A stretch of DNA of 64,000 nt, taken from assembly GCA_002897775.1 (NCBI GenBank), contig BDTR01000049.1, positions 1 to 64,000 of the forward strand, read 5' to 3'. Position 1 is the stretch's first letter; every line of letters starts with the position of its first letter. Positions 2,830 through 53,149 of this stretch are shown piece by piece. This stretch comes from a bacterium BMS3Bbin08. Its GTDB lineage: Bacteria; Nitrospirota; Thermodesulfovibrionia; UBA6902; BMS3Bbin08. The position numbers and the translations under genes are program-made. The notes under the pieces are model-generated. The model was not told the origin of the DNA, did no database searches, and saw nothing but the letters and a program-made list of their open reading frames with translations.

Positions 2830-4032
2830 ATGAGAAAAACAGATTTAATATGCATGTGGTGTGGAAAGGAAACCACAGGGATAAAGAAAGAAGATGGAGT
2901 GGAGCATATATTTCCTGAAGCTATCGGCGGAATAGATACACTTCCTATTGGAGATGTTTGCAAAGAATGCAACAATGAGTTGAGTAAGATAGATAAGGCA
3001 TTAAAGATTGGTAGTTTAGCTATGATGCATGCATATCAAACCGATACAAGAATTAAAGGCAAGAAAACAAGCGACATAGAAAGACGGCAGAGAAGGCTTA
3101 AAGAAAAAACGCATATTGAGGGAATAAGTGGAGCTCAAATAAAGAGAAATCCCCAAGGCCATTGGACAGAGATTCGCAATGGTAGCTTCTTAAGGAATAC
3201 AGACTCATTTTCAAGGGCACTACATAAATGTATTGCAAATGTTATTTGTTATCACGAAGGGTCTAAGTTTGTTCGAAAAAATTGCAAAGAGCTATTGGAG
3301 TTTGTAAAAAATGGAGGTGATGTCAGACCATGGAGTTGCGCTGTTAGTTATCCCTACATTCTAAATAGAGCATTATCTGTCATTCCTCATGCGATGAAAC
3401 TCTTAACAATTAAAAATAAGAACAATGAGATTGTAGCGTTGATTGTCTGTTTCGTTCACACTTCTGGTATTTGGCTTGCCGGCTCACAGCCATTTCTGTT
3501 ATCCAAACAGAAGATAGAAATGTTGTCAGATGCGCTCGTTAATAACACGCCTGAAGTAAAAAGAGTCGAAAAAAAATACGATACAAAAATAACAGATCTA
3601 TTTGGAGAGACGTCCATAGTAGGAATAAAAAATTTTATTGGCAAGTTGAATTTTATCTGGATAATTAAAGAGATAGAGGGGACAAAAAATCCAGATGACT
3701 CTTTTTACTTATTAGCAAAATGCAAACTTTGTAATCAAACAAATCCTACAGGTATAATAATCAGCAAAAAGACTGTATTTAAAGGGGACAATAGTAATCG
3801 AATATCATATGAGAAAAACTCATGGAACTCTTATTCAAAAGGTGATTTAATAAAAGATGGTGTAAATATTGAAAAATTGGACTCTGGGCATATAAGTAAA
3901 TACATTAAAACTCAAGGTATTTCTATTCCAATTAAAAATGATGTAAAAAAAATGGACTTCAAAAGGAAGAGATTCAATTGTATCAATTGTGGAGAGTTGA
4001 ATATCTTTAATGCAGGCGACTGTTTTTTATAA
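2830..4032 (+). CDS. HNH endonuclease-type protein with extra C-terminal zinc ribbon
   Basis: A 400-residue AT-rich gene. The N-terminus has an HNH-like zinc nuclease signature: CMWCG (residues 9-13), then VEHIFPEAIGG (about 25-35) and CKECNNELSK (about 45-54), which supplies the metal-binding cysteines, the catalytic histidine and the asparagine. The C-terminus holds two more CxxC pairs (CKLCNQ near 298 and CINCGE near 388) that probably form a zinc ribbon. The middle is of unknown fold. Such stand-alone HNH proteins are common in defence islands and mobile DNA. It stands alone between repeats, with only a weak ribosome site (GAAAGGT). Nuclease activity is inferred from the motif; the target is unknown. 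Confidence 0.75.
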   Translation: MRKTDLICMWCGKETTGIKKEDGVEHIFPEAIGGIDTLPIGDVCKECNNELSKIDKALKIGSLAMMHAYQTDTRIKGKKTSDIERRQRRLKEKTHIEGISGAQIKRNPQGHWTEIRNGSFLRNTDSFSRALHKCIANVICYHEGSKFVRKNCKELLEFVKNGGDVRPWSCAVSYPYILNRALSVIPHAMKLLTIKNKNNEIVALIVCFVHTSGIWLAGSQPFLLSKQKIEMLSDALVNNTPEVKRVEKKYDTKITDLFGETSIVGIKNFIGKLNFIWIIKEIEGTKNPDDSFYLLAKCKLCNQTNPTGIIISKKTVFKGDNSNRISYEKNSWNSYSKGDLIKDGVNIEKLDSGHISKYIKTQGISIPIKNDVKKMDFKRKRFNCINCGELNIFNAGDCFL

Positions 4033-4570: not shown

Positions 4571-4650
4571 TTTGGGGACGTTGTATTAAACTATGTATTA
4601 GCAGCAATCTCAGAACTAAGAATAAGTAACTCATTAGGGGTCAGGTCTTG
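4571..4650. repeat. Two dispersed repeat motifs abutting the end of the PD-(D/E)XK gene
   Basis: TTTGGGGACGTT (4571-4582) recurs reverse-complemented at 5761-5772 and as a variant at 471. GGGGTCAGGTCT (4637-4648) recurs at 11757-11768 and as GGAGTCAGGTCT at 16189-16200. The second motif contains the TGA stop of the gene ending at 4641, so the last residues of that protein are repeat-derived. Both motifs are typical of decayed REP-like elements; that interpretation is inference. Confidence 0.55.
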
Positions 4651-5327
4651 TATCTTAACATTTCCCCCACATCTATAAAAACATCTGCAATATATCTCGA
4701 TAATTTATGTTTGCTAAGGCCTAAGAGTTTCTTCTCCAGCTGCAGTGCACCTGTCCATTGCTCTAACGACGTCGGGATATGAGTAGTATCATCCAAAAAG
4801 TAAACGAAAATGAGATATGCTTTTATTTTATTGAGATGCCTCAGATAGTAGAGATGAGCGAGCCTGTTGGCGTATTGATATAACCCGGTTGTCCAGTCGA
4901 TCTCAGTCCGGCACTTAAGGAACTCTCTTGTCTCTTTCAAACGCCTCTGGATACGTTTCCGAGATTTAGGTGATCTGGCCCCACAGCTTGACAGTAATTC
5001 CGGGATATTCGCCTTAGCTTCAACCAGAAAAACCTCCCCGTCATTTCCTTGTCCAAGTGCATCCCATTGCGGTCCTTTATTGGGCCAGAAATCGTGCAGA
5101 GGTATCTTTAATCCTGGGATCCCAAGTCTTTTTATAAAATCATCGTCACGATATTCGGCGTATTCATCATCTGCTAATGGGGACACCCATTCAATATTAT
5201 CTGACTTAATATGTATCTTCTCTTTGATGAGCTTATTCAACAGGGCAGGGCGATTGTTGATAAGTTCCTGAATATGCCGTAAACTTCCGCGTTCGCCTGA
5301 TTGTTGAGGAACTCTGCTCATAATCAC
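4641..5327 (-). CDS. PD-(D/E)XK nuclease-like protein, WYL-operator controlled
   Basis: A 228-residue protein with no named family that I recognise. The centre carries a restriction-endonuclease-fold signature: QWDALGQGNDGEVFLVEAKA at about residues 87-106, giving the D...E-x-K arrangement (WDALG then VEAKA) on a predicted strand. This suggests a DNA- or RNA-cleaving or degraded nuclease. A promoter reads into it: TTGATT (5353-5358) and TATACT (5331-5336) with 16-base spacing, and the TGCCA-N6-TGGCA operator lies at 5374-5389. The ORF begins at 5327; an ATG two codons inside (MSRVPQ) is equally possible. Its C-terminal LRYKT ends inside a dispersed repeat, so it may have lost its original tail. 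Confidence 0.65.
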   Translation of the reverse strand: MIMSRVPQQSGERGSLRHIQELINNRPALLNKLIKEKIHIKSDNIEWVSPLADDEYAEYRDDDFIKRLGIPGLKIPLHDFWPNKGPQWDALGQGNDGEVFLVEAKANIPELLSSCGARSPKSRKRIQRRLKETREFLKCRTEIDWTTGLYQYANRLAHLYYLRHLNKIKAYLIFVYFLDDTTHIPTSLEQWTGALQLEKKLLGLSKHKLSRYIADVFIDVGEMLRYKT

Positions 5328-5373
5328 ATCAGTATATCAAAACAGGCCTGAAAATCAAGATTCCTCTTTAGAT

Positions 5374-5389
5374 TGCCAATATGGTGGCA
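5374..5389. promoter_or_regulatory. WYL-regulon operator copy 1 (divergent promoter)
   Basis: TGCCAATATGGTGGCA matches the palindrome TGCCAnnATnnTGGCA. It lies between the divergent PD-(D/E)XK gene and receiver gene. On the plus strand it sits within a likely core promoter (TTGCCA 5373-5378, 17-base spacer, TTTAGT 5396-5401) for the receiver; on the minus strand it lies 15 bases upstream of the -35 of the nuclease-like gene. One site could thus control both directions. Confidence 0.7.
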
Positions 5390-5412
5390 GTCTGGTTTAG
5401 TAAAATGGACGC

Positions 5413-5793
5413 ATGGCAAAGAAAAAAATATTAATTGTTGACGAGGACGCGGGCGTTAGAGAAACCCTTAGCGGTATTTTTGAATACGAGAGATATACAG
5501 CGTTTACTGCAAAAACAGGGAGCAACGCTCTTAAATTACTTAAAACTAAATCCATAGACCTCATTTTTCTGGATATACATCTTCTAGATATTTTAGAGAA
5601 CGTTATCATAAACGAGCAAAGCCCGCCGGTAATATTGACCGGCAAAAAAGTAACGCCTGAAATTGTGCCAGAAGCACTCAGAAAAGGAGCAGTTGATTTC
5701 TTGGAAAAACCGCTCTCATTAGAAAAATTGCTTGTTTTAGCTAAAAGAGCCATCAAGAGTAACGTCCCCAAACAAAACAGTTTACTAACTTAA
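5413..5793 (+). CDS. Orphan single-domain response regulator (receiver)
   Basis: A 126-residue CheY-like receiver. Conserved positions are visible: the acidic pair DED after ILIV (residues 10-12), the phosphoacceptor Asp in LIFLDIHL (about residue 54), the Thr in ILTG and the Lys of LEKPLS (about residue 99). The loop after the phosphoacceptor lacks the usual LP-x-x-x-G pattern. No histidine kinase is in the window. ATG 5413 has only a GGAC site and a very short leader from the predicted promoter. The last residues (NVPKQN) are encoded by a reverse copy of the TTTGGGGACGTT repeat. It precedes the UDG-like gene by 38 bases, so the two may be cotranscribed under the WYL operator. Confidence 0.85.
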   Translation: MAKKKILIVDEDAGVRETLSGIFEYERYTAFTAKTGSNALKLLKTKSIDLIFLDIHLLDILENVIINEQSPPVILTGKKVTPEIVPEALRKGAVDFLEKPLSLEKLLVLAKRAIKSNVPKQNSLLT

Positions 5794-5831
5794 GCAAACT
5801 ACCTATAATTGGAAATATTGGAGGTATTTTA

Positions 5832-6461
5832 ATGGAAGAGATATGGGACAAGTGGCAGAGGCATTATAAGAATAGTCCAGAAGATATAAATCGTATATGT
5901 AAAGATGGCATACTTAATACAGAAGAATTTAAAAGCGCAAAGCCTAAGATACTTTTTATTATGAAGGAAGTTAACGATTTTGCTGGTAAAGATCTCCGGG
6001 TACTATTAAAGGATGGCCCATGTTTTAAGATGTGGCACACTGTTGCACGATGGGCGGCCGGGATATGGAAGGGATTCCCAGAATATAAGAAGGTTAACAA
6101 CTCAGATTTGATGCGAGAGGCTCTTTCGAAAATTGCGACTATCAACCTAAAAAAAGTATCTGGTGAATCATCTGCACTTTGGTCTCAAATCAATGCATAC
6201 GCACATCGGGATAGAGAACTACTGCGCGAACAAATTAGACAGATAAATCCAGACATTATAATTGCATGTGGAGTATTCGAAATATTAATCTGGCTATTAG
6301 ATCTTGATGTCGACCCAAACGAACCATATAAGTCACCGATAAAAGATAATAAACGTAATGCTTATGTAATACCATGGAAACATCCAGCTGGCAGATTTAA
6401 TAATGAAAAATCATACAATGCCTTAAGAAATATAGTGGAATCAAGGAATGTTAACTACTAA
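5832..6461 (+). CDS. Uracil-DNA glycosylase superfamily-like protein
   Basis: A 209-residue protein resembling the UDG-like superfamily by layout: an N-terminal strand KILFIMKEVND (residues 37-47) where UDGs carry the GxxP/substrate loop, a middle INLKKVSG (about 100-107), a strand NPDIIIACGV (about 138-147), and a C-terminal PWKHPAGR (about 180-187) in place of the UDG H-P-S loop. The canonical catalytic residues are not clear, so activity may differ or be lost. A strong GGAGG site precedes the ATG. It lies 38 bases after the receiver and converges with the OB-like gene, overlapping its stop by four bases. A role in DNA repair or defence is inferred from fold and neighbours. Confidence 0.6.
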   Translation: MEEIWDKWQRHYKNSPEDINRICKDGILNTEEFKSAKPKILFIMKEVNDFAGKDLRVLLKDGPCFKMWHTVARWAAGIWKGFPEYKKVNNSDLMREALSKIATINLKKVSGESSALWSQINAYAHRDRELLREQIRQINPDIIIACGVFEILIWLLDLDVDPNEPYKSPIKDNKRNAYVIPWKHPAGRFNNEKSYNALRNIVESRNVNY

Positions 6462-7012
6462 TTGATTTCTTTTATTTTTTCAACAAGAAACTGAGGGCCG
6501 GTCTCTGAGAGAGAGCCCAGAACAAAGAGCTTCTTGTTCTTCTTGCAAATCTTCCGGAAGTTATTAAATTCTTCTAAGAAAACAAGAACTTTTAAATCAG
6601 GCAGATCTTTGAATTTAGCATAGGCCAATTCGCTGCCGCTTTTTGTGCGGCGATACTTGACGCTCGAAATTGGCCCATAAATAGACAAGATATGTTGATG
6701 TGCGAATCGATTATTATTCTTTTTGTACTCCTCGTCAGATAGTTCGCTTAATTTTGCGCGTGTTGCTGGTGATGACTGAGACCTTATTTCAATTGGATGC
6801 ACCACGCTTTCAAAAATTACTAAATTGCCTTCAAATAAATATTTTTTTCCTTTCTTAAGCTTGGACCGGTAACGTAGAGCAATATCATCATCAAGAGTAA
6901 AAAATATATCTTCATGTTCATTGGTCATAATAAATCCAGATAATTCATCACTTTCAGGCCATTCCATGATATCAAAATCTTCAATCGTCCCAATCAATGA
7001 AACTTTAGACAT
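6458..7012 (-). CDS. Unrecognised protein with OB-fold-like pattern
   Basis: A 184-residue protein with no family that I can name. The first 75 residues alternate hydrophobic strands with polar turns (VSLIGTIEDFDIMEWPE, SGFIMTNEHEDIFFTL, KGKKYLFEGNLVIFES), a pattern typical of OB folds. The last 80 residues repeat a similar strand pattern (ILSIYGPISSVKYRRTK, KVLVFLEEFNNF, KLFVLGSLSE), suggesting two OB-like halves. Such folds usually bind single-stranded DNA or RNA, but binding here is inference. A GGGAGG site precedes the ATG. It is the second gene of a pair with the HEAT gene, 14 bases downstream of it, behind operator copy 2. Confidence 0.55.
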   Translation of the reverse strand: MSKVSLIGTIEDFDIMEWPESDELSGFIMTNEHEDIFFTLDDDIALRYRSKLKKGKKYLFEGNLVIFESVVHPIEIRSQSSPATRAKLSELSDEEYKKNNNRFAHQHILSIYGPISSVKYRRTKSGSELAYAKFKDLPDLKVLVFLEEFNNFRKICKKNKKLFVLGSLSETGPQFLVEKIKEIN

Positions 7013-7026
7013 TCAAGGCCTCCCTA

Positions 7027-7377
7027 CTAATTCCTTCTAAATTGATTCTTTCTTCTTTTTTCATCTTCCCTCTCCTTTATGTAATAATGTACATCTATCT
7101 GATCTACATCAGCACCGTATTTCAATATTGCTTCGATAAAATATTTATGGTCTGTTGTTTTTAGAAACCTCAAGGTATCCAGTGCTTTTTTGCCTCCGAT
7201 CCTCCTGATCGTGCGGATCGCTTCTTCCTGGATCCCAAGGTCGTCGTCATAAAGCGCTTTATATTTAAGACTTTCGAGAGCTTTTTTCAGTTTCTTTTTT
7301 CCAATGGCCCCGAGTGCCTCGTAAATATCATTAATATCTTTACTTTCAAGGAGTTGTAGTAATTCCTCTTCACTCAT
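7027..7377 (-). CDS. HEAT-repeat protein
   Basis: A 116-residue protein made of alpha-helical repeats. Two HEAT-like units are visible in residues 15-90: INDIYEALGAIGKKKLKKALE and LGIQEEAIRTIRRIGGKKALD-type helices with the typical A/I/G spacing. The C-terminal tail (about residues 98-116) is highly basic. HEAT repeats are protein- or nucleic-acid-binding scaffolds. No ribosome site is obvious, and a TATCAT -10 box at 7384-7389 places the transcript start almost at the ATG, so the mRNA may be leaderless. It heads the pair with the OB-like gene and sits behind a WYL operator. Confidence 0.65.
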   Translation of the reverse strand: MSEEELLQLLESKDINDIYEALGAIGKKKLKKALESLKYKALYDDDLGIQEEAIRTIRRIGGKKALDTLRFLKTTDHKYFIEAILKYGADVDQIDVHYYIKEREDEKRRKNQFRRN

Positions 7378-7400
7378 ATTTTAATGATAACAAAGGTCGC

Positions 7401-7416
7401 TGCCACCATTGTGGCA
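7401..7416. promoter_or_regulatory. WYL-regulon operator copy 2 (HEAT/OB pair)
   Basis: TGCCACCATTGTGGCA fits TGCCAnnATnnTGGCA. It ends 11 bases before the predicted TATCAT -10 (7384-7389, minus strand) of the HEAT gene and so overlaps the -35 region, a position suited to repression. Confidence 0.7.
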
Positions 7417-7426
7417 GTATGCCGTA

Positions 7427-8365
7427 CTATTTTTTGAGGTGTATTTGAAGGGCTTTCTGCAGGTCTTTTTTAACTATTGTTTTTAATTCTTTCGGAGCTA
7501 TGACTTCAACATGAGGCAGCCATTTATATATCCATTCTTTTATTTCATCTAAACCAGTCACCTTAAAGCTAACCTCAAGCTGGCCATTTTTTAGCTCTTT
7601 TTCTTTCTGGCTCTTGTGCCATTTCTTTCTTGTAATATAGCGTGATATATCGCTATCAAATCTTAATACAACTTCAACAGGTTTTCCATCAAGCCATGTT
7701 CCAAATGATTTGGAGAGTTCTTCTTTTTGTGAAATATTAATCGGAACAAACGACTCATCTAGAACTTTCAGAGAGATTATTCTATCAAGGTCAAAGGTGC
7801 GCAGCTCCTTTCTTAAATGACAATATGCCCTGAGATGCCAGAAACCCTCCTGGGGCGAAAAAAAGAGATAGTATGGATCGATCTTTCGAGTTGACTTCTT
7901 ATTAGAGTAAAGAGTTTTATATATAAGCCTTATCCTTTGAAAGTTTATAATCGCTTGATGTATTGCCTCAAGATACTCTCCAACTTCAGGGGAGGGGGGT
8001 TCAGCTTTTAAAACAATATGTCCTGAGAGGCCGGTCTTTTTTACAGAAAGCTTTTCTTCTATGCTGTTCAGACTTTTTTCCATGCCTGAGCCGAAATTAC
8101 CTAACATTTGTTTTGCGAGGGCGAGAGACAGTGTTTCTTCAACTGAAAGCACAGGTTTTCTAAGACTGTATTTTTCTACAAAAACATAGCTCTCTTTTTT
8201 TCTGTCATAATGAACAGGAAAACCGCCAATCTGTAATGTTTGTAGATAGCGATGAACACTTCTTTCGCTGATCTCAAGATCATCCATTAACGAATGCACC
8301 GTCACTTTTTTCCCGCTATCAAGCATATTTAGAATTTTCATTAATGAATCAAATTTATAAGACAT
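7427..8365 (-). CDS. WYL-domain transcriptional regulator
   Basis: A 312-residue regulator with an N-terminal winged HTH (residues 8-60: KILNMLDSGKKVTVHSLMDD followed by SERSVHRYLQTLQIGGFPV), a central WYL domain (about 140-215, with the RIRLIYKTLYS strand, DPYYLFFSPQEGFWHLRAYC and the FDLDRI end), and a C-terminal WCX extension (about 230-310). WYL proteins sense nucleic-acid ligands and control DNA-damage or phage-defence genes (PafBC, DriD, BrxR, CapW are known examples). The gene lies inside the cluster bearing four copies of one palindrome, one of which covers its own promoter. Ligand and sign of regulation are unknown; autoregulation is strongly suggested. Confidence 0.9.
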   Translation of the reverse strand: MSYKFDSLMKILNMLDSGKKVTVHSLMDDLEISERSVHRYLQTLQIGGFPVHYDRKKESYVFVEKYSLRKPVLSVEETLSLALAKQMLGNFGSGMEKSLNSIEEKLSVKKTGLSGHIVLKAEPPSPEVGEYLEAIHQAIINFQRIRLIYKTLYSNKKSTRKIDPYYLFFSPQEGFWHLRAYCHLRKELRTFDLDRIISLKVLDESFVPINISQKEELSKSFGTWLDGKPVEVVLRFDSDISRYITRKKWHKSQKEKELKNGQLEVSFKVTGLDEIKEWIYKWLPHVEVIAPKELKTIVKKDLQKALQIHLKK

Positions 8366-8402
8366 TTTTTGATCTCAGGCCTGTTTTCTTTGATTTCAGT
8401 AT

Positions 8403-8430
8403 ATTATACCTCACTGCCAACATCCTGGCA
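8403..8430 (-). promoter_or_regulatory. WYL gene promoter with operator copy 3
   Basis: TGCCAACATCCTGGCA (8415-8430) is followed on the minus strand, six bases on, by a consensus TATAAT (8403-8408). The operator therefore covers the -35 (CTGCCA) and spacer of the WYL gene promoter, the classical arrangement for negative autoregulation. All four operator copies share the central AT. Confidence 0.75.
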
Positions 8431-8503
8431 GTCTGAGGAGGAGATAAATTATAAAGGACAATAGGAATTGTGTTGGTCAGGGCTAGGGCAATAGGGAGGG
8501 TCC

Positions 8504-10189
8504 TTACCCTCTCGTCAAATGCCTGTACTTAATTCTATGCGGTTGGTTTGCGGCGGCTCCGAGACGTGCTTTTCTATCGGCTTCATATTCCGAGTAATTC
8601 CCATCGAACCAGACCACTTTACTGTCGCCCTCAAAGGCGAGTATATGTGTGGCGATACGGTCCAGGAACCACCTGTCATGGCTGATGATCACGGCACAGC
8701 CCGCGAAATTTTCCAAAGCCTCTTCCAGGGCGCGCATGGTGTTTACATCAAGATCATTGGTAGGTTCATCAAGGAGCAGTACATTCGCGTCTTCTTTCAG
8801 CATACGGGCCAAATGCACCCGGTTTCTTTCTCCTCCTGACAGCATTGAAACCTTTTTTTGCTGGTCGCTCCCTGAAAAATTAAAGCGCGCCACATATGTG
8901 CGTGAGTTGATCTGCCTCTTGCCAAGCTGAACGGTATCCTGCTCGTCTGAGATAACCTCCCAAATGCTTTTCTTTGGGTCCAGGTCATCCCGGCTCTGAT
9001 CCACGTAAGCGAGTTTGACTGTTTCTCCAATATTGAATGTGCCTGAATCCACTTTTCCCTGTCCGGTGATCATCTGGAAGAGGGTGGTCTTTCCTGCTCC
9101 GTTAGGGCCTATGACGCCTATAATACCGCCCGGAGGAAGGGAGAAGGTCATACCCTGCATAAGGATATTATCTCCGTATGCCTTGCTCACGTTATCAGCT
9201 TCAATGACCACATTACCCAGCCGGGGTCCCGGCGGAATAAATATCTCGAGCTCTTTAGATGTTTTATCGATATCCTGGTTCAGGAGCGCCTCGTATGAAG
9301 TGATACGCGCCTTGGATTTCGCGTGCCGCCCCTTGGGTGACATGCGTATCCATTCAAGCTCGCGCTGAAGGGTCTTCTGTCTTTCGCTCTCAGACTTCTC
9401 TTCCTGCCCCAGGCGGTTCTTCTTCTGCTCAAGCCATGAGGAGTAATTGCCTTTCCACGGGATACCCTGTCCCCTGTCAAGTTCCAGTATCCACCCGGCC
9501 ACATTATCGAGAAAATACCGGTCATGGGTCACTGCAATGATAGTGCCGGCATAGCTCTGCAGATGATGCTCCAGCCATGCCACGGTCTCGGCGTCAAGGT
9601 GGTTGGTGGGTTCATCCAAAAGCAGGATGTCTGGTTTCTGCAGGAGGAGCTTGCAAAGCGCGACACGCCGCCTTTCTCCTCCTGAAAGGACCTCCATGGG
9701 CGTATCTCCTGAAGGACAGCGCAGTGCATCCATTGCCATTTCCAGGCGTGAATCAAGGTCCCAGGCATTCATTGCTTCGAGTTTCTCCTGAACCGTTCCC
9801 TGACGCTCGATGAGTTTGCTCATTTCATCGTCAGACATGGGCTCAGTGAATTTTTCATTAATGCTGTTATATTCTGTCAGGGTATCTGCTATTTCCTGCA
9901 CACCCTGTTCAACGATCTGCCGCACGGTCTTGTTGTCATCCAGTTTGGGCTCCTGCTCAAGCAGGCCCACGGTGTGACCAGGAGAAAGCACGGTCTTACC
10001 GTTGAACTCCTTATCTTTTCCCGCAAGTATGCGGAGCAGGGAGCTTTTCCCTGACCCGTTGAGGCCGAGGACACCGATCTTGGCCCCGTAGAAATATGAA
10101 AGATAGATATCCTTCAGTACGGGCTTCTTATCGTAATACTTGCTTACCCCGATCATGGAGTAAATTATCTTGTCAGGTTCATTGCTCAT
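8504..10189 (-). CDS. ettA: Energy-dependent translational throttle protein EttA (ABC-F ATPase)
   Basis: A 561-residue ABC-F protein that binds the ribosomal E site and gates the first elongation steps according to ATP/ADP ratio. Two ATPase domains are complete: Walker A GLNGSGKSS, signature LSGGERRRVALC and Walker B LLLDEPTNHLD in the first half; GPNGAGKTT, LSGGERNRVHLA and LLLDEPTNDLD in the second. The long inter-domain linker (about residues 245-325) contains the arm-type KKNRLGQEEKSESERQK and MSPKGRHAKSKARI stretches. The protein begins MSNEPDKIIYSMIGVSKYY like EttA; an upstream TTG would add three residues. It runs divergently from the DEAD-box helicase. Codon use is more GC-rich than the island around it. 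Confidence 0.95.
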   Translation of the reverse strand: MSNEPDKIIYSMIGVSKYYDKKPVLKDIYLSYFYGAKIGVLGLNGSGKSSLLRILAGKDKEFNGKTVLSPGHTVGLLEQEPKLDDNKTVRQIVEQGVQEIADTLTEYNSINEKFTEPMSDDEMSKLIERQGTVQEKLEAMNAWDLDSRLEMAMDALRCPSGDTPMEVLSGGERRRVALCKLLLQKPDILLLDEPTNHLDAETVAWLEHHLQSYAGTIIAVTHDRYFLDNVAGWILELDRGQGIPWKGNYSSWLEQKKNRLGQEEKSESERQKTLQRELEWIRMSPKGRHAKSKARITSYEALLNQDIDKTSKELEIFIPPGPRLGNVVIEADNVSKAYGDNILMQGMTFSLPPGGIIGVIGPNGAGKTTLFQMITGQGKVDSGTFNIGETVKLAYVDQSRDDLDPKKSIWEVISDEQDTVQLGKRQINSRTYVARFNFSGSDQQKKVSMLSGGERNRVHLARMLKEDANVLLLDEPTNDLDVNTMRALEEALENFAGCAVIISHDRWFLDRIATHILAFEGDSKVVWFDGNYSEYEADRKARLGAAANQPHRIKYRHLTRG

Positions 10190-10320
10190 TTTGATCAACC
10201 CGCTAAGTATACATATTTGGACTGGAAATTCTCAATAAGCCCGCCTCTACCTTCGGCAGACAGGTACTGACAGGCCCCGATGGATCGGGATCTCCGCCCT
10301 GTCTTATGCAGGGCTCCAAC

Positions 10321-10350
10321 TTGACATTGCCTCTCCTGAGAGGCTATTGT
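10321..10350 (+). promoter_or_regulatory. Probable promoter of the DEAD-box helicase
   Basis: TTGACA (10321-10326) and TATTGT (10345-10350), 18 bases apart, point rightward. The resulting transcript would have a leader of about 90 bases that includes the terminator-like hairpin at 10393-10422 before the ATG at 10450. Confidence 0.5.
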
Positions 10351-10392
10351 TAATAAGTTAAGTTGTATTCGGATGAAATTTGCCCCCACAAA

Positions 10393-10422
10393 GCTTCGGA
10401 ATACTCCCGAAGCCTTTTTTTT
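10393..10422 (+). terminator. Leader terminator/attenuator before DEAD-box helicase
   Basis: GCTTCGG (10393-10399) and CCGAAGC (10407-10413) form a 7-bp GC-rich stem with a 7-base loop followed by eight T (10415-10422): a textbook Rho-independent terminator on the plus strand. No plus-strand gene lies upstream (ettA is divergent), so it can only act on the helicase's own transcript, 27 bases before its ATG. Confidence 0.75.
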
Positions 10423-10449
10423 CGTCTTGAAACACAAAAAAAGGAGATC

Positions 10450-11748
10450 ATGGAATTTACAGAATTTGATTTAGACAGCACAATTATGGCTGGCGTCTCG
10501 AATGCCGGCTATGTAACACCAACACCTATTCAGGCCCAGGCGATGCCGCACGCGCTCAAAGGGCGCGACGTTATGGGGCTTGCCCAGACCGGCACCGGCA
10601 AGACCGCCGCGTTTGTCCTGCCGATCCTCAACAGGTTGATAAAGTCGAGGAACAGACGTGTCCGCGCGCTCATCATTGCGCCGACCCGTGAGCTTGCGGA
10701 ACAGACCCGCGAGGCAGCCCGCAGTCTTGGAAAGAAGACAGGCTTACGGAGCGTCTCAGTGTACGGCGGAGTGAATATCAAACCGCAGATCCAAAAGATC
10801 CGCAGCGGTGTGGAAATTGTCGTCGCATGTCCGGGACGTCTGCTTGACCACATCGGCCAGGCTACGATCAGCCTGAAGCACCTGGAGGTGCTGGTGCTGG
10901 ACGAGGCTGACCGCATGCTTGATATGGGATTTCTCCCGGACATAAGGAAGATCATCAAGCACATACCGTCAAAGCGGCAGACAATGCTCTTTTCAGCCAC
11001 CATGCCTGACGATATCAGGAAGCTCGCCAATGATGTGCTGAAGGACCCTGTCACAATCCAGATCGATCATAAGAAACCTCTCAACACAGTAGCGCATGCC
11101 CTTTTTCCAGTACGTCAGCACCTGAAGACCGGGCTTCTCCGCGCACTGCTCAGGGATATAAATTCTGAGTCGGTCCTTGTTTTTACGCGCACCAAGCACC
11201 GGGCAAAACGAGTTGGACTGATGCTCCAGAAGGACGGGTACAGCGCGGCGTCGCTGCAGGGCAACCTTTCGCAGGCCAGGCGGCAGGAAGCGCTTGACGG
11301 GTTTCGTGCAGGCAAGTATCAGATACTGGTCGCGACCGATATCGCTGCCCGGGGCATTGACGTCTCATGCATATCGCACGTCATTAACTATGACATTCCA
11401 GATACAGCTGACGCGTACACTCACAGGATCGGCAGAACAGGCCGGGCCGCGAAGAACGGCGATGCCTTTACGTTCGTAACAGATGAAGACAAGGACATGG
11501 TCCTGAGTATTGAACGCGTTCTCAAGGAGAAAGTTGAGCGGAGAACGCTTGAGGGCTTTGACTATAACAAGCCCAAACCGTCCCGCAATATTGAGTTTAG
11601 CCGTCCGCCGCGCGCGCGGCAGGCCAAGAGGACAAATTCAAGCAAGAAGGCGTCCTCAGCCAGGGTTTGGACAAAGGTCCCGGCAGCGAAACGCGGCGCG
11701 AATGTCCGGAAGTCGTTCAGCCGGGTGGTGCGCACCTCTGGAAAGTAA
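10450..11748 (+). CDS. DEAD-box ATP-dependent RNA helicase (RhlE-like)
   Basis: A 432-residue helicase. All motifs are visible: Q motif (PTPIQAQAMP), motif I AQTGTGKTA, Ia PTRELAEQ, II DEADRMLDMGF, III SATMP, then VFTRTKHRAK, ARGIDV and HRIGRTGR in the second RecA domain. The last 60 residues are very basic (RPPRARQAKRTNSSKK), typical of RNA-binding tails in RhlE/CsdA-type enzymes that unwind structured rRNA or mRNA in the cold. The ATG at 10450 is chosen because of AAGGAG seven bases upstream; the reading frame opens earlier, but that part overlaps the leader hairpin. Subfamily assignment (RhlE versus CsdA) is tentative. The leader attenuator suggests cold or feedback control. Confidence 0.92.
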   Translation: MEFTEFDLDSTIMAGVSNAGYVTPTPIQAQAMPHALKGRDVMGLAQTGTGKTAAFVLPILNRLIKSRNRRVRALIIAPTRELAEQTREAARSLGKKTGLRSVSVYGGVNIKPQIQKIRSGVEIVVACPGRLLDHIGQATISLKHLEVLVLDEADRMLDMGFLPDIRKIIKHIPSKRQTMLFSATMPDDIRKLANDVLKDPVTIQIDHKKPLNTVAHALFPVRQHLKTGLLRALLRDINSESVLVFTRTKHRAKRVGLMLQKDGYSAASLQGNLSQARRQEALDGFRAGKYQILVATDIAARGIDVSCISHVINYDIPDTADAYTHRIGRTGRAAKNGDAFTFVTDEDKDMVLSIERVLKEKVERRTLEGFDYNKPKPSRNIEFSRPPRARQAKRTNSSKKASSARVWTKVPAAKRGANVRKSFSRVVRTSGK

Positions 11749-11756
11749 CCATTCTG

Positions 11757-11768
11757 GGGTCAGGTCTG
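11757..11768. repeat. Dispersed GGGGTCAGGTCT motif
   Basis: Copy of the same 12-mer at 4637-4648 (variant at 16189-16200), directly downstream of the helicase stop codon and followed by TGGTTTCTTGCATTAC, as is usual for this repeat type. Confidence 0.5.
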
Positions 11769-11844
11769 GTTTCTTGCATTACACTTCCTCACTGCTATTC
11801 CGACACATGATTTAGAGGTTTATTAATGAAATCATGTAAAAAGA

Positions 11845-12156
11845 TCAGAGAACTATTGCTTTAATTCTCTTGCGATATCTGGCCATTAAAAATCCCAGGA
11901 AATTGCCGATTATATTGTCTGGTTTATTTGTTCTTTTTGTCACAAACCTGCATACAAGTGTTTTTGTCGGCCCATTCCAGTGGATGTTTACAGCGCCATA
12001 ATTTTCTGTGCTATGCAGTTTTGCCCACCCCGGATTTCGTCCAGGCTTTTTCTGTTCTGTAACTTCAAGATTGAACTTTTGTAATTTACTATCATTAACT
12101 ATTCTTTCCCTAAGACTTCCACTACCCATGCATATCACACGAATTAATACTTCCAT
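11845..12156 (-). CDS. Small unrecognised protein
   Basis: A 103-residue protein of no family that I recognise. It is supported as a gene by a strong AGGAGG ribosome site seven bases before the ATG and by an uninterrupted frame. The sequence is basic and mixed, with RNPGWAKLHSTENYGAVNIHW in the middle and a basic C-terminal helix (LGFLMARYRKRIKAIVL). No membrane segment or catalytic motif is visible. It is divergent from the HTH/nucleotidyltransferase pair and AT-rich, so it may belong to that accessory module. Confidence 0.6.
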   Translation of the reverse strand: MEVLIRVICMGSGSLRERIVNDSKLQKFNLEVTEQKKPGRNPGWAKLHSTENYGAVNIHWNGPTKTLVCRFVTKRTNKPDNIIGNFLGFLMARYRKRIKAIVL

Positions 12157-12255
12157 TTATTACCTCCTAAAACACATACCCTTGTTTGATGATTTTCGGG
12201 TTTATTTAATAATTTTACAGAATTTTAATTATATTTTTAAATATAAAGAAACAAA

Positions 12256-12284
12256 TTGACTAAATGTAGTAAATATACTACAAT
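12256..12284 (+). promoter_or_regulatory. Promoter with embedded perfect palindrome (HTH/nucleotidyltransferase operon)
   Basis: TTGACT (12256-12261), 17-base spacer and TACAAT (12279-12284) form a near-consensus promoter. The spacer contains TGTAGTA-AATA-TACTACA (12265-12282), a perfect 7-bp-arm palindrome. The transcript would start at about 12291, exactly the ATG of the HTH gene, implying a leaderless mRNA under tight autorepression. Confidence 0.75.
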
Positions 12285-12290
12285 TAAAAC

Positions 12291-12794
12291 ATGATTACTT
12301 TTGGCGATAACGTTCTGCTTTGGCGATTACACAGATCGCTTTCTCAAGAGCAGCTGGCGGCCCGGGCCAACATACCCCGTCCCAATTTATCGAGTATCGA
12401 AAGGGGAAAGAGGAGTGTGACTCTATCTACCATTCGATCGCTGGCAAACGCCCTTGATGTGCCTCCGGGGACTCTTGTCAATGGCGAACCACCGGGACAT
12501 AAGAAGTATAAAAGCGATTTTACGCGGGAAGCTATGGAGAGGGTAGCTCGTTCAGTTGTTCAGGGAGTTCCCCCTAAAGATCCCTCTGAACATCAAATCT
12601 ACGATTTATTGAAACAAGTTCTCCAGTGTGGACTTCAAAGTGTGCGGGCCCACCACCGCAAACTGCCCCTGCCTACCAGAAGAAGCGCTCGGGCGTGGCT
12701 TTATTTACGCGCGTTGTGTTCGACAGAGACTATCAATAGTCTTATTGCCAGATCAGTGGAGCAGGCGGAAATAAAATGGATCGACGACAAATAG
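12291..12794 (+). CDS. XRE-family HTH regulator, putative antitoxin
   Basis: A 167-residue protein. Residues 5-60 are a classical Cro/C1 HTH (FGDNVLLWRLHRSLSQEQLA, then IPRPNLSSIERGKRSVTLST). The remaining hundred residues are helical and basic with no recognised domain; they probably contact the partner. The gene overlaps the nucleotidyltransferase gene by 19 bases, so the two are cotranslated. The promoter palindrome and the lack of any ribosome site point to a leaderless, autorepressed transcript. A toxin-antitoxin pairing is inferred from layout; the family is not one of the named experimentally proven modules that I can identify. Confidence 0.82.
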   Translation: MITFGDNVLLWRLHRSLSQEQLAARANIPRPNLSSIERGKRSVTLSTIRSLANALDVPPGTLVNGEPPGHKKYKSDFTREAMERVARSVVQGVPPKDPSEHQIYDLLKQVLQCGLQSVRAHHRKLPLPTRRSARAWLYLRALCSTETINSLIARSVEQAEIKWIDDK

Positions 12795-13384
12795 ACCGTT
12801 TTTTCAAGATCCTTGGTGCTGAGTTTAATAAAGAGGCTGAGATCATACTAACCGGTGCGGCCGCGGGTCACATAATGGGCAGCAAACGGCCCAGCATGGA
12901 CATAGACTTTGCCATCAAACTTAAAAAGGCGGGGAAACCTGGATGGGAGGAGCTGGAATCTGCCATTAGGAAAGCAATTGCTGAAACCGGTATTCAGGTC
13001 AACTATGCCGAGGATATCGATAAATGGGGCATGATAACTTTACTTGACTATGAAAACAACACAAAATTTTATAAAAAATACGGCAACCTGACTCTAAGGG
13101 TGCTCAGTCCGGCTTTTTGGTCCATTGGAAAAGTGACACGTTTTCTGGATCCGGACATTAAAGATATGATCCAGGTTTTCCGCAAAACAAAACTTTCACC
13201 GATAAAGCTGGCGAAAGTCTGGGGAAGAGCCCTTAGAGAAAGTCCGCGGTCAATGGTCCTTACGCGATTCCGGCGACAGGTAGAAAGCTTTTTTGACTCC
13301 TATGGCAAAAGGATCTGGGGCAGCAGTTTCAACTCAACAAAAGCTATCCGGCAATTTCATAAATCAGCAGATATCGAGAAATAG
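12776..13384 (+). CDS. Nucleotidyltransferase-fold protein (DUF6036-like), putative toxin
   Basis: A 202-residue protein of the DNA polymerase beta nucleotidyltransferase superfamily, close to DUF6036/AbiEii relatives. The active-site region is IILTGAAAGHIMGSKRPSMDIDFAI (residues about 22-46, shown here only to mark it): a GA-x-A loop followed by the D-x-D pair that binds metal. The C-terminal half has a helical bundle (IKLAKVWGRALRESPRS). It follows the HTH antitoxin candidate with a 19-base overlap. By analogy to AbiE/MNT systems it may nucleotidylate tRNA or protein. Together with abiEi/abiEii this gives two nucleotidyltransferase modules within 12 kb. Confidence 0.78.
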   Translation: MDRRQIDRFFKILGAEFNKEAEIILTGAAAGHIMGSKRPSMDIDFAIKLKKAGKPGWEELESAIRKAIAETGIQVNYAEDIDKWGMITLLDYENNTKFYKKYGNLTLRVLSPAFWSIGKVTRFLDPDIKDMIQVFRKTKLSPIKLAKVWGRALRESPRSMVLTRFRRQVESFFDSYGKRIWGSSFNSTKAIRQFHKSADIEK

Positions 13385-13524
13385 ATGAAGGGTAACAATC
13401 GGGATCTACGTTTCTCCCCGACAGACTTTGTCGAAGCGACTAAACTGCGACTCGTATCGAGTTTCTTGCATTCCCCCCTGTTTCCCTGATTTAGTGTAAA
13501 AACAAATCTATTTAACCTAAACAA

Positions 13525-14997
13525 TTAGCAAGCTTTTCCCAGCTTCTCCAATATCCTAACCATACCCAATGTATCCAACCCGCAATATTCGAGAAGAGCT
13601 TTGCGGATCTGTTCATTTTCTGTCGAATCCGGTGATTGGCACATCTTCAGATATGCCTCTGAGGCCATGCCGCCTTCACCGATATCCATATCATCGTAAC
13701 TTAATTCCGGCACGAGTATAGGCAACACTATTTTCATGGAAAATGATCCATTCATCTTATAATGGTAATAGTCCTTGCTCCTAAAAGGGGCTGCAAGATC
13801 TCTTATGTTTGATATAATTCTATCGATTTTTCCCTTGTATTTCGGGAACCATTCTGCAAGCTGTTTTAATACTCCCTTTTCAAATGACATGTTATATGCC
13901 AAAACGCAGGCATCCTGAGGGATTTCCTTAATAAGCCTGGTAATAATTTCCTCTCTGGGATCTGTGTTTGGAGGTGCCAGATACTCATAATGACCTATCT
14001 TGCCACCTTTTTTTTCTAAATAATCCAGTGAATACTGGAAAGGCACCTTCTGGTATGGACGCAGGTTATCATAAGGCGGTATGGCGCAATCAAAAGTTTC
14101 GAAATCGAGAAAATACAGTGGATACCACAACGACTCTATGAATTTTTTAATCTTATCCTTATCAATAACATTTTTCTTTTTAAGAGTTGCATTTGCCTGG
14201 ATTCCCTGATTACGATTTAAACTATCCGCAGGAACATCCTTCAGATGTACAATTCCCTGTTTATATAGATCAAACTTATTAACGCCATGCCCCCTAAGAT
14301 CAAATATTGAATTCTCCGGTATATGCTGCCAACAGTGTCCCTGAAAGTCACAATTATAAGGTGCACTGCAGTATTTACCAATATCAATCTCAGGTATATC
14401 TCCTTCAAGCATTTTTTTCTGTTTTGCAAGTTCTTTTTTAACGGAATCCTGTTTGTTTTTTACACGTTTAGTACAATCAATTATCTCAAAAAGCTTTTTC
14501 ACGTCAATTTTGCCTTTTCGCACGTATTTATTATTTATATGCACTAAAAAGGCCTTAGATACCGGGAGTCCCGCCCCTTTTAAAACATAATACTGTATAG
14601 CAACATCATCTAAATATACGTCTTTTTCTCCGGTTGAGCTCTTGACCTCATAAAGCTCCCAGCCCATCTTACCTTTATGTAAGATATCAACCTTAACAAA
14701 GACATTATCATGGACAAACGCGGCTTCATATAGAGTGTTAGTGCCTTTTTCAATCTCAGATTTGGTAAGGCTAAGTTGTTTTGAAAGAGTCCCTTTACCA
14801 AAAGGTATTGCAACTCCTCCAGGAAAAAGTTTTTGGGCATAAATTCCAACATCTGTGCCGCTTTGAAATAAGGCCTGCTGTAACGCTGAAATTTCGTCAC
14901 GTAGTTCTGGTTGGTGTTTATACAGATAAAGGGATTTGTGACACTGAAGGCCCCTAATGAAAGAGGATTTACTGAGAGATAAGTTGACTGTTTTCAT
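13525..14997 (-). CDS. Cas4-like nuclease fused to DUF2779 DEDD-type exonuclease
   Basis: A 490-residue two-domain protein. The N-terminal half resembles Cas4/RecB: LSKSSFIRGLQCHKSLYL (residues 6-23, giving the first cysteine), a PD-(D/E)XK core with VDIL and WELYEVKSST (about 104-122) and QYYVLKGAG, then a cysteine trio YCSAPYNC...GHC (about 208-222) that would complete a 4Fe-4S cluster. The C-terminal half is DUF2779, an RNase H/DnaQ-like fold with LYFLDFETFD (about 296-305), LAYNMSFEKGVL (about 373-384) and LLEYCGLDTLGMV (about 468-480) supplying the DEDD residues. Operator copy 4 lies 155 bases upstream. Its role in repair or defence DNA processing is inferred. Confidence 0.85.
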   Translation of the reverse strand: MKTVNLSLSKSSFIRGLQCHKSLYLYKHQPELRDEISALQQALFQSGTDVGIYAQKLFPGGVAIPFGKGTLSKQLSLTKSEIEKGTNTLYEAAFVHDNVFVKVDILHKGKMGWELYEVKSSTGEKDVYLDDVAIQYYVLKGAGLPVSKAFLVHINNKYVRKGKIDVKKLFEIIDCTKRVKNKQDSVKKELAKQKKMLEGDIPEIDIGKYCSAPYNCDFQGHCWQHIPENSIFDLRGHGVNKFDLYKQGIVHLKDVPADSLNRNQGIQANATLKKKNVIDKDKIKKFIESLWYPLYFLDFETFDCAIPPYDNLRPYQKVPFQYSLDYLEKKGGKIGHYEYLAPPNTDPREEIITRLIKEIPQDACVLAYNMSFEKGVLKQLAEWFPKYKGKIDRIISNIRDLAAPFRSKDYYHYKMNGSFSMKIVLPILVPELSYDDMDIGEGGMASEAYLKMCQSPDSTENEQIRKALLEYCGLDTLGMVRILEKLGKAC

Positions 14998-15013
14998 AGA
15001 TTTTATTATTTTA

Positions 15014-15094
15014 ACACTTATTAACTGCCTGTGCTAACAACTTTTTGATATCAGAACTATATGCCTTACGTCTTTGATAATATTTATTTTTCAT
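15014..15094 (-). CDS. Possible 26-residue peptide upstream of the Cas4-DEDD gene
   Basis: A short frame from ATG 15092-15094 to TAA encodes a basic, lysine-rich peptide starting MKNKYYQRRKAYSSD. It lies 16 bases before the ATG of the nuclease gene, after a GATAAT -10-like box (15109-15114). The ribosome site is weak (GTGAG). It may be a leader peptide, a small partner, or chance; no homology can be judged by eye. Confidence 0.25.
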
Positions 15095-15151
15095 TAGTCT
15101 CACTATGTATTATCACTCCTATGCTCTGCTACCGTCCTGTCAGTCTCAGAT

Positions 15152-15167
15152 TGCCATAATGGTGGCA
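15152..15167. promoter_or_regulatory. WYL-regulon operator copy 4 (Cas4-DEDD gene)
   Basis: TGCCATAATGGTGGCA fits TGCCAnnATnnTGGCA, and its flank GGCAGTCTGG is identical to copy 1. It lies 38 bases upstream of a GATAAT box reading toward the Cas4-DEDD gene. The 7 kb separation from the WYL gene indicates a regulon rather than only autoregulation. Confidence 0.65.
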
Positions 15168-15289
15168 GTCTGGACTTCGACTGAGTTCAGTTAAGGTCTC
15201 GGACATCGGTGCTATTCGGGCCTGCCCCGATGTATCGGGCTCCCGTACAACATCGTAGACGGGATAAATCTCCGAAATAAAGCCCCGGC

Positions 15290-17905: not shown

Positions 17906-18181
17906 TCATGCGATCTTTACCTGAAGTTTCTTCCCGAGTGCTGAAGCCACCTTTTCCAGGGTCGACAGCTTGATATCCTCTGCGTGATTTTCTATCCTGG
18001 AAATAGCGGTCTTTTTGGTTTTAAGTTTCAGGGCAAGCTCTTCCTGGGTCAAACCAGCAGACTCACGGGCCTGCTTGAGTACAGCGCCTATCTTGAACTG
18101 CTCAAAGCCTTCGTCATACCCCCTGGCAAAGCGTTTCTCCCTGTTTTTTCTCCCATGAATATATTTTTTAAGGTCGCTCAT
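17906..18181 (-). CDS. higA: HigA-type XRE antitoxin
   Basis: A 91-residue protein with a C-terminal Cro/C1 HTH (residues 30-85: IGAVLKQARESAGLTQEELA, KTKKTAISRIENHAEDIKLS, LEKVASALGKKLQVKIA). The N-terminal 28 residues are charged and probably neutralise the toxin. The start overlaps the stop of the toxin gene by four bases, the usual higBA order with toxin first. It probably represses the operon through the perfect palindrome at 18538-18563. The family call is firm; the symbol follows the toxin-first order rather than a close homologue. Confidence 0.85.
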   Translation of the reverse strand: MSDLKKYIHGRKNREKRFARGYDEGFEQFKIGAVLKQARESAGLTQEELALKLKTKKTAISRIENHAEDIKLSTLEKVASALGKKLQVKIA

Positions 18182-18534
18182 TTTTTTAACCTCCTTTTTA
18201 AATGATTTTTCCTGTAGGCCTCTGCTCTGTCTATCTCCCGACGAGGGGTCTTTTGCGTTTTTTTGGTAAACCCGTGAGTCAGGACAACTACTGAATCGCC
18301 TTCAAAAAAGCAGAATATCCTATAAGCATTTGAGGCGAACTGGATCCTGCATTCCCAGATCTCTTCAGTGTTAACCAGCTTTTTGAAATAATTAGCCGGC
18401 ACAACATCAAGGTCCTCAAGCAGTTTCAGTACCCAGGTTACCTTTTGGGCAGCTTTCCCGGACAAGGAATCAAGAAAGTCTTGTATAGGACATTTACCAT
18501 CAACTGTCCGATAAAAGATGACCGTCTTGCCCAT
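18178..18534 (-). CDS. higB: HigB/RelE-superfamily toxin (phage Gp49-like)
   Basis: A 118-residue toxin of the Gp49/HigB type, a ribosome-dependent mRNA interferase in characterised members. Recognisable features are PIQDFLDSLSGKAAQKV (residues 16-32), the strand WECRIQFASNAYRIFCFFEG (about 58-77) and VVLTHGFTKKTQKTPRREID (about 80-99), which are all diagnostic. It is the first gene of the pair, with the palindromic operator ending only three bases before its ATG, so its mRNA is short-leadered or leaderless. No truncation or loss of key basic residues is apparent. Confidence 0.88.
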   Translation of the reverse strand: MGKTVIFYRTVDGKCPIQDFLDSLSGKAAQKVTWVLKLLEDLDVVPANYFKKLVNTEEIWECRIQFASNAYRIFCFFEGDSVVVLTHGFTKKTQKTPRREIDRAEAYRKNHLKRRLKK

Positions 18535-52639: not shown

Positions 52640-53149
52640 ATGGCACAGAAAAGATCATTAAGGCCGACCACTGGCAAGGTCCGGGAGGCTGTTCTTAATA
52701 TTTTAAGGGACAGCATAGAAGGCGCGCTTTTTCTTGACCTGTACGCAGGCACAGGCGCTGTGGGTGTTGAGGCCCTGCGTCAGGGAGCAGCGGAAGCAAT
52801 ATTTGTTGAGGCAGACAGCCATAATTTAAAAGCAATAGATAAGCTGATAAAAAAATCCGGTCTTTCTGAAAGAGCACGTGTAATAACAGGAAAGGTCCTG
52901 AAGTTTATTGAATGGGCCGAGCTAAACAGCCTGACCTTTGATATAATATTTCTTGATCCTCCGTATCACACAGACGAAATAATTCATGCGTTAACAGCGA
53001 TCGGCGGGTCGCATATTATGAGGCCCGGAGGCAGGGTCATGGCAGAACACTTTGCCAAGAAACATTTGCCTGACCGGTTCGGGAGTTTACAGAAAATAAA
53101 AGACTATCATTATGGTGACAGTATATTAAGTCTCTATAAGACATTATAA
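52640..53149 (+). CDS. rsmD: 16S rRNA (guanine(966)-N2)-methyltransferase
   Basis: A 169-residue Rossmann methyltransferase. The N-terminal LRPTTGKVREAVLNIL (residues 8-23) and FLDLYAGTGAVGVEALRQGA (about 30-49, SAM loop), FVEADSHNLKAI and FDIIFLDPPYHTDE (about 102-115) are the RsmD signature. The N-terminus is about ten residues shorter than usual. The ATG at 52640 follows AAGGGCGG; GTG at 52625 is an alternative. It is followed after the MITE-like element by coaD, as in many bacteria. Confidence 0.92.
   Translation: MAQKRSLRPTTGKVREAVLNILRDSIEGALFLDLYAGTGAVGVEALRQGAAEAIFVEADSHNLKAIDKLIKKSGLSERARVITGKVLKFIEWAELNSLTFDIIFLDPPYHTDEIIHALTAIGGSHIMRPGGRVMAEHFAKKHLPDRFGSLQKIKDYHYGDSILSLYKTL

Follow-up and report, generated by a model that had tools for sequence, protein, structure and literature searches.

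A 64,000-nucleotide stretch of the genome of the Nitrospirota bacterium BMS3Bbin08 (contig BDTR01000049.1, positions 1 to 64,000; hereafter the window) encodes a WYL-domain regulator whose gene (7427-8365, reverse strand) lies among four copies of one palindrome, its putative operator. In this genome and its relatives a -10 hexamer of the form TAnnnT follows the palindrome at a distance of 9 or 10 nt much more often than expected by chance, a feature that goes beyond an earlier first-pass annotation of the window, which had been made from the letters of the DNA. Judged by its bases, the combination of site and spacing, TGnCAGTn-N8-TAnnnT, is the promoter of mycobacterial PafBC in half-site and spacing, made palindromic like the site of the homodimer DriD. 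We consider it fairly probable that the protein is a DriD/PafBC-like activator, probably homodimeric and responsive to DNA damage or single-stranded DNA (ssDNA), at the head of a cis-clustered, modular regulon.

The palindrome and its distribution

The 16-bp motif TGCCAnnATnnTGGCA occurs four times with zero mismatches (5374-5389, 7401-7416, 8415-8430 and 15152-15167) and nowhere else in the 2.71-Mb genome; these are the four positions given in the first-pass annotation. Simple arithmetic with uniform bases and 12 fixed positions yields a chance expectation of about 0.004 copies per 64 kb, in agreement with the figure quoted there for the motif with its central AT. Extension by two bases per side produces a 20-bp palindrome with the consensus ACTGnCAnnATnnTGnCAGT, present as ATTGCCAATATGGTGGCAGT (5372-5391), GCTGCCACCATTGTGGCAGT (7399-7418), ACTGCCAACATCCTGGCAGT (8413-8432) and ATTGCCATAATGGTGGCAGT (15150-15169). 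All four sites are intergenic and, grouped around the WYL gene, span less than 9.8 kb. The arms TGCCA-N6-TGGCA are found at six places genome-wide, with a central AT in the window's four alone, and the looser TGnCA-N6-TGnCAGT adds five further places, none of them with a central AT. The central-AT motif, confined to four places near the WYL gene, is therefore not dispersed over the genome, nor is it a cluster due to chance. The earlier statement that there is no fifth copy is correct for the exact motif, while a degenerate tandem copy, ACTGACAGGACGGTAGCAGA, adjoins the fourth site (15125-15144, reverse strand; by eye, 11 of 14 positions agree with the consensus). Two one-mismatch sites were discarded: that at 53103-53122 lies within a methyltransferase open reading frame (ORF), has no -10 and is probably due to chance, and that on contig C67 lies in an ORF or has no -10 on either strand.

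Orthologues of the WYL protein with 47-68% identity are present in the same order, in the same class and in Deltaproteobacteria/Syntrophorhabdus metagenome-assembled genomes. The upstream regions of 19 of them were inspected, the promoter having played no part in the search that found them, and a version of the palindrome was found at the own promoter in all 19. It lies 44-118 bp before the start codon in 18 cases; in the remaining one (L080 = G119) the site (L102:8978) stands ahead of a MraZ-like gene that precedes the WYL gene. Neither a motif scattered over the genome nor orthologue carriers lacking it at their WYL promoter, patterns that the first-pass annotation had named among those speaking against a regulon, were thus encountered. 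Own-promoter sites in Nitrospirota fit ACTGnCA-N6-TGnCAGT, and four Deltaproteobacterial ones (L085, L086, L087 and L090) read AGTGACA-N6-TGTCACT, symmetric and at the same place. These four have K at residue 34 of the recognition helix, where the others have E, Q, S or D. This E34-to-K change, which tracks the change from ACTGnCA to AGTGACA, is no more than suggestive of a match between helix and operator, as three of the four genomes are close relatives.

In most relatives the sites group around the WYL gene. The order-wide search returned a mean of 2.8 one-mismatch sites per genome in the five orthologue carriers versus about 0.8 in the other 42, and 0.4 for the reversed control. Of the distant homologues (34-36% identity), G029 and G058 have no site, and G047 has one at its own promoter and several nearby. 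Together with sites at HEAT-OB and Cas4-DUF2779 genes in relatives (see below), the own-promoter sites of all 19 orthologues examined support the WYL regulon proposed in the first-pass annotation, and we hold the assignment of operator, autoregulation site and regulon with high confidence.

Genome G045 holds a fragment of a WYL gene (C-terminal 83 residues, 52% identity) with an intact operator and -10 about 1.5 kb away (C1:1107689 and 1109235), apparently a decaying copy of the system. Viral spread was rejected, as no WYL relative was found among the IMG/VR viral contigs.

Promoter geometry and regulator family

TAnnnT starts 9 nt (12 cases) or 10 nt (five cases) after the 20-bp palindrome in 17 of 18 WYL promoters. 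In a second set it stands at these offsets in 14 of 15 WYL promoters and in 16 of 35 other site-to-gene directions, which include many wrong sides of divergent sites, compared with about 3% per offset elsewhere; 14 of those 16 directions have no alternative hexamer at offset 4 or 5. The geometry is fixed by six non-WYL genes with an ATG exactly 21 nt past the palindrome (window 5413 and 7377; L069:4306; L103:7346; L092:9501 and 13501), where +1 would coincide with the ATG and TAnnnT would occupy -12 to -7. Leaderless mRNAs are therefore predicted for all six. At the usual -35 position, similarity to TTGACA is at random level. A composite pattern of operator and -10 gave 41 matches in 12 genomes versus 10 for the reversed control.

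The mycobacterial RecA-NDp consensus is tTGTCRgtg, 8 nt and TannnT (PMC5656591). A relative's promoter, L094 (TTGTCAGTG-TACTATTA-TACAAT), agrees with it at 12 of 12 positions, and the WYL promoter of the window (TTGGCAGTG-AGGTATAA-TATACT) at 11 of 12, as do L079 and L082; the remaining promoters deviate at the variable third base or by a 9-nt gap. This geometry points to activation, and to PafBC and DriD rather than BrxR and CapW.

The regulator itself (312 aa) matches the Pfam families HTH_11 (E 3e-7), WYL (E 7e-18) and, at its C-terminus, WCX (E 8e-16). Its nearest solved proteins by sequence profile in the PDB are PafBC (E 6e-19) and DriD (~1e-16), with BrxR and CapW far behind; an HTH-only search of the PDB gave nothing useful. 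A structure model of the single chain was built from 14 orthologues, and because its quality is modest (pLDDT 73, pTM 0.34) only the ranking was used from the fold comparison, which placed DriD first (E 8e-19), then PafBC (~2e-14) and BrxR/CapW (~1e-11). By sequence and modeled fold, the protein is closer to DriD/PafBC than to BrxR/CapW; all four had been offered as parallels in the first-pass annotation, and the former two also fit the promoter geometry. Of the candidate arginines for ssDNA binding, R189 and R195 are invariant among the orthologues, and the position equivalent to PafC R201/PafB R211 holds A or D. Each locus viewed, in the window and in relatives, has a single WYL gene rather than the adjacent pafB and pafC of the strict PafBC definition.

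PafBC of mycobacteria and other Actinobacteria shares with the present system the HTH-WYL-WCX architecture, the half-site TGnCAGT(g), the 8-nt gap to TAnnnT, the position near -26, the lack of a -35 box and the tie to DNA repair genes (PMC5656591, PMC11804915). It is, however, heterodimeric and its site is not a palindrome: PafB occupies -26 and PafC is placed on sigma domain 4 (PMC6789036, PMC11804915). It also needs the polymerase for DNA binding. Here, by contrast, one WYL gene is paired with a full palindrome conserved in both arms, one of the ssDNA-binding arginines of PafBC is replaced, the phyla are different and the regulon forms a small island clustered in cis. Caulobacter DriD, the best fold match, binds as a homodimer to a 20-bp pseudo-palindrome in promoters whose -35 elements are poor, overlapping the -35 region at a fixed distance to the -10 as our palindrome does (PMC12340889), but its site, ATACGAC-N7-GTCGTAT, differs in sequence and spacing, its identity to our protein is 24% and its targets are didA, bapE, recJ and dnaG. 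SiwR of rapidly growing mycobacteria is likewise a WYL activator that works as a homodimer; its imperfect palindrome lies upstream of the -10, and a -26 region is required as well (PMC10693628). Unlike here, that palindrome has 19 bp, a GGA triplet occupies -26 and an adjacent dinB-like operon is the sole target. BrxR and CapW also bind operator DNA and control defense genes, and a CapW-ssDNA structure exists (9c5g), but they are repressors and weaker matches in sequence and fold. A half-site and spacing as in PafBC, joined in a symmetric site as in DriD, support activation. No earlier report of this system was found in the open-licence papers searched.

Mode of regulation and alternative explanations

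According to our model, the WYL protein would bind the 20-bp palindrome, probably as a homodimer, and activate promoters of the sigma70 type in which a -35 box is missing. The palindrome would cover about -41 to -22, which brings the downstream half-site to '-26' as in mycobacterial PafBC and, as in DriD, puts the center near the -35 region. Regulated genes would be the WYL gene itself, a leaderless HEAT-OB operon, a leaderless pair encoding receiver and uracil-DNA glycosylase (UDG)-like proteins, and a Cas4-DUF2779 nuclease. We regard PafBC/DriD-like activation at the palindrome promoters as probable. By homology, the activating signal may be ssDNA or a related nucleic acid that arises from DNA damage or phage attack, and we lean slightly toward DNA damage or ssDNA.

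Several observations weigh against this model. PafB R211/PafC R201 is one of two arginines that PafBC needs to bind ssDNA; our protein and its orthologues have D or A there (FDLDR/FALDR versus FRLDR), so that the ligand may differ. The p-values of the -10 placement, 1e-17 for WYL promoters and 1e-10 for other directions, are nominal, as the promoters are not all phylogenetically independent. Operators of the Deltaproteobacterial group are weak when compared with the Nitrospirota consensus and are recognized by symmetry and position, and the WYL copies in G026 and G188 are interrupted by stops. Finally, the WYL gene's own promoter contains TATnAT at offset 4 or 5, for which the left arm CTGnCA could serve as -35 across a spacer of 17-18 bp. 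Given this alternative -35/-10 pair across the operator, the WYL gene may also be repressed by its own product.

The last point leads to a variant of the model, in which the protein would act as an autorepressor at its own overlapping constitutive promoter and as an activator at its targets. The hexamers at offsets 4/5 and 9/10 are each kept in 14 of 15 WYL promoters and most targets keep the latter only, yet the offset-4/5 element may be a mere part of a TATGnTA extended -10; we regard this variant as possible rather than probable. Repression throughout, as by BrxR and CapW, would have the protein cover extended -10 promoters and release them on a nucleic-acid signal. Such a mode would suit the overlap of the palindrome with the polymerase footprint, the T-15 G-14 of several promoters, which as extended -10 elements could work without a -35 box, and the CTGnCA-N17/18-TATnAT that spans the operator at the WYL promoter. 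It is nevertheless unlikely in our view, given that the activators DriD and PafBC are the protein's nearest neighbors and that it possesses the WCX domain, that half-site and spacing match a PafBC-activated promoter and that most target promoters contain neither a -35-like hexamer nor an alternative -10.

The ACTG...CAGT flanks resemble the Escherichia coli SOS box, and LexA is present in this genome in two copies, which raises the question of whether another regulator binds the palindrome and its linkage to the WYL gene is incidental. We rejected LexA as the binder, and consider any such regulator very improbable: neither lexA locus has a site, LexA is undetectable in five WYL-carrying genomes with the motif, and the motif, present at the WYL promoter in 19 of 19 orthologues, varies together with the WYL recognition helix. 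Even more remote is an origin as a mobile or structural repeat without regulatory role (transposon end, terminator or REP-like element). The arms are identical at four places, but they are all that the copies share, spacer and flanks differ among the copies, target-site duplications and a T run are absent, and promoter-proximal sites keep a fixed distance to the -10 in many genomes; this origin was likewise rejected.

Predicted regulon and its neighborhood

The predicted features are as follows.

4641-5327, reverse: divergent PD-(D/E)XK-like protein; no Pfam match; no TAnnnT at 9/10 on its side
5372-5391, forward: operator of the receiver/UDG-like pair; -10 TAAAAT at 5401-5406; ATG at +1 (predicted leaderless)
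5413-5793, forward: stand-alone receiver domain, 126 aa (Pfam Response_reg)
5832-6461, forward: weakly UDG-superfamily-like protein, 209 aa (Pfam UDG 20.0 bits, cut-off 24.3)
6458-7012, reverse: weakly assigned OB-fold-like protein, 184 aa (Pfam tRNA_anti-codon at 17.5 bits, under the cut-off; homologue in G026 only)
7027-7377, reverse: HEAT-repeat protein, 116 aa (Pfam HEAT_2; homologue with operator in G026)
7399-7418, reverse: operator of the HEAT-OB operon; -10 TATCAT at 7389-7384; ATG at +1 (predicted leaderless); recurs before HEAT/OB homologues (L069:4265)
7427-8365, reverse: WYL regulator, HTH_11 + WYL + WCX, 312 aa (Pfam; PDB sequence relatives; fold match)
8413-8432, reverse: operator of the WYL gene's own promoter, ACTGCCAGGATGTTGGCAGT on this strand; -10 TATACT at 8403-8398
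13525-14997, reverse: Cas4-like PD-(D/E)XK domain (Fe-S cysteines kept) plus DUF2779 (DEDD 3'-5' exonuclease-like), 490 aa (Pfam DUF2779 E 1.3e-44)
15125-15144, reverse: degenerate tandem operator, followed by a possible -10 GATAAT at 15114-15109
15150-15169, reverse: operator upstream of the Cas4-DUF2779 gene

The first-pass annotation had assigned the site at 5372 to the genes on both sides. A -10 at the right distance exists on the receiver/UDG-like side alone, and membership of the PD-(D/E)XK-like gene is accordingly not supported. The UDG-like and OB-like labels given there correspond to weak matches, both below the Pfam cut-offs. PDB searches returned no sequence relatives of the UDG-like, Cas4-DEDD or PD-(D/E)XK-like proteins. 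The combination of DUF2779 with DUF83 is already known (PMC3985635). A possible 27-codon ORF (15094-15011, reverse strand) lies between the operator and the Cas4-DUF2779 gene.

Among relatives, parts of this gene set recur. The Cas4-DUF2779 gene is found in five WYL islands (window, L090, L092, L102 and L104), preceded by a site directly in L102 and with one small ORF between in L104 and L092, and the HEAT and OB pair recurs with its site in G026. A conserved full gene set was rejected; only the combinations of WYL with Cas4-DUF2779 and of HEAT with OB are recurrent. Within 231 genomes of the class, a single further homologue of the UDG-like protein exists, a distant one with no WYL-type site nearby, and the OB protein has a single other homologue, that in G026. 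Sites also precede a MraZ-like gene and genes for small DivIVA-like and FtsZ_C-like proteins (L092 9501-12609, L104 14823-15074), the latter two being possible division-arrest factors of a damage response. In G034 (L067 1310-8708), operators stand before genes for a helicase resembling DrmD, a TmtA-like protein and an HNH/mREase_IV-like nuclease, together a defense-like cassette.

With a little less than even confidence, we posit that the -26 half-site of PafBC is read here as a full palindrome by a WYL activator that one gene encodes and that is probably a homodimer. It may be an ancestral or non-actinobacterial version of the PafBC system, spread among Nitrospirota and Deltaproteobacteria, where unrelated repair and defense cassettes and possibly cell-division genes would join a local damage regulon by gain of an operator. 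If so, the LexA-independent WYL damage promoter of mycobacteria would exist in distant phyla with nearly the same letters and spacing and one gene instead of two, and its simple, testable operator code would allow WYL regulons to be found from sequence alone. Uncharacterized proteins, among them Cas4-DUF2779 fusions, pairs of HEAT and OB proteins, the small proteins resembling DivIVA and FtsZ_C and the DrmD/TmtA-like cassette, would then be united in a common damage- or phage-triggered response. LexA was detected in 6 of 11 genomes checked, this one included, so the WYL system coexists with SOS in some genomes and may replace it in others; in the five WYL-carrying genomes without detected LexA, it could be the main damage switch. 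The two LexA-type proteins of the present genome (C53:68737 and C43:21848) are encoded away from any WYL operator.

The surroundings of the regulon look rich in defense genes. A DUF6088 and AbiEii type IV toxin-antitoxin pair is encoded at 827-2424, and at 12291-13384 an HTH_3 protein and, after it, a nucleotidyltransferase with weak likeness to AbiEii probably make up a second toxin-antitoxin-like pair. An HNH_5 endonuclease (2830-4032) and a Gp49-like protein (18178-18534) are also found near the regulon.

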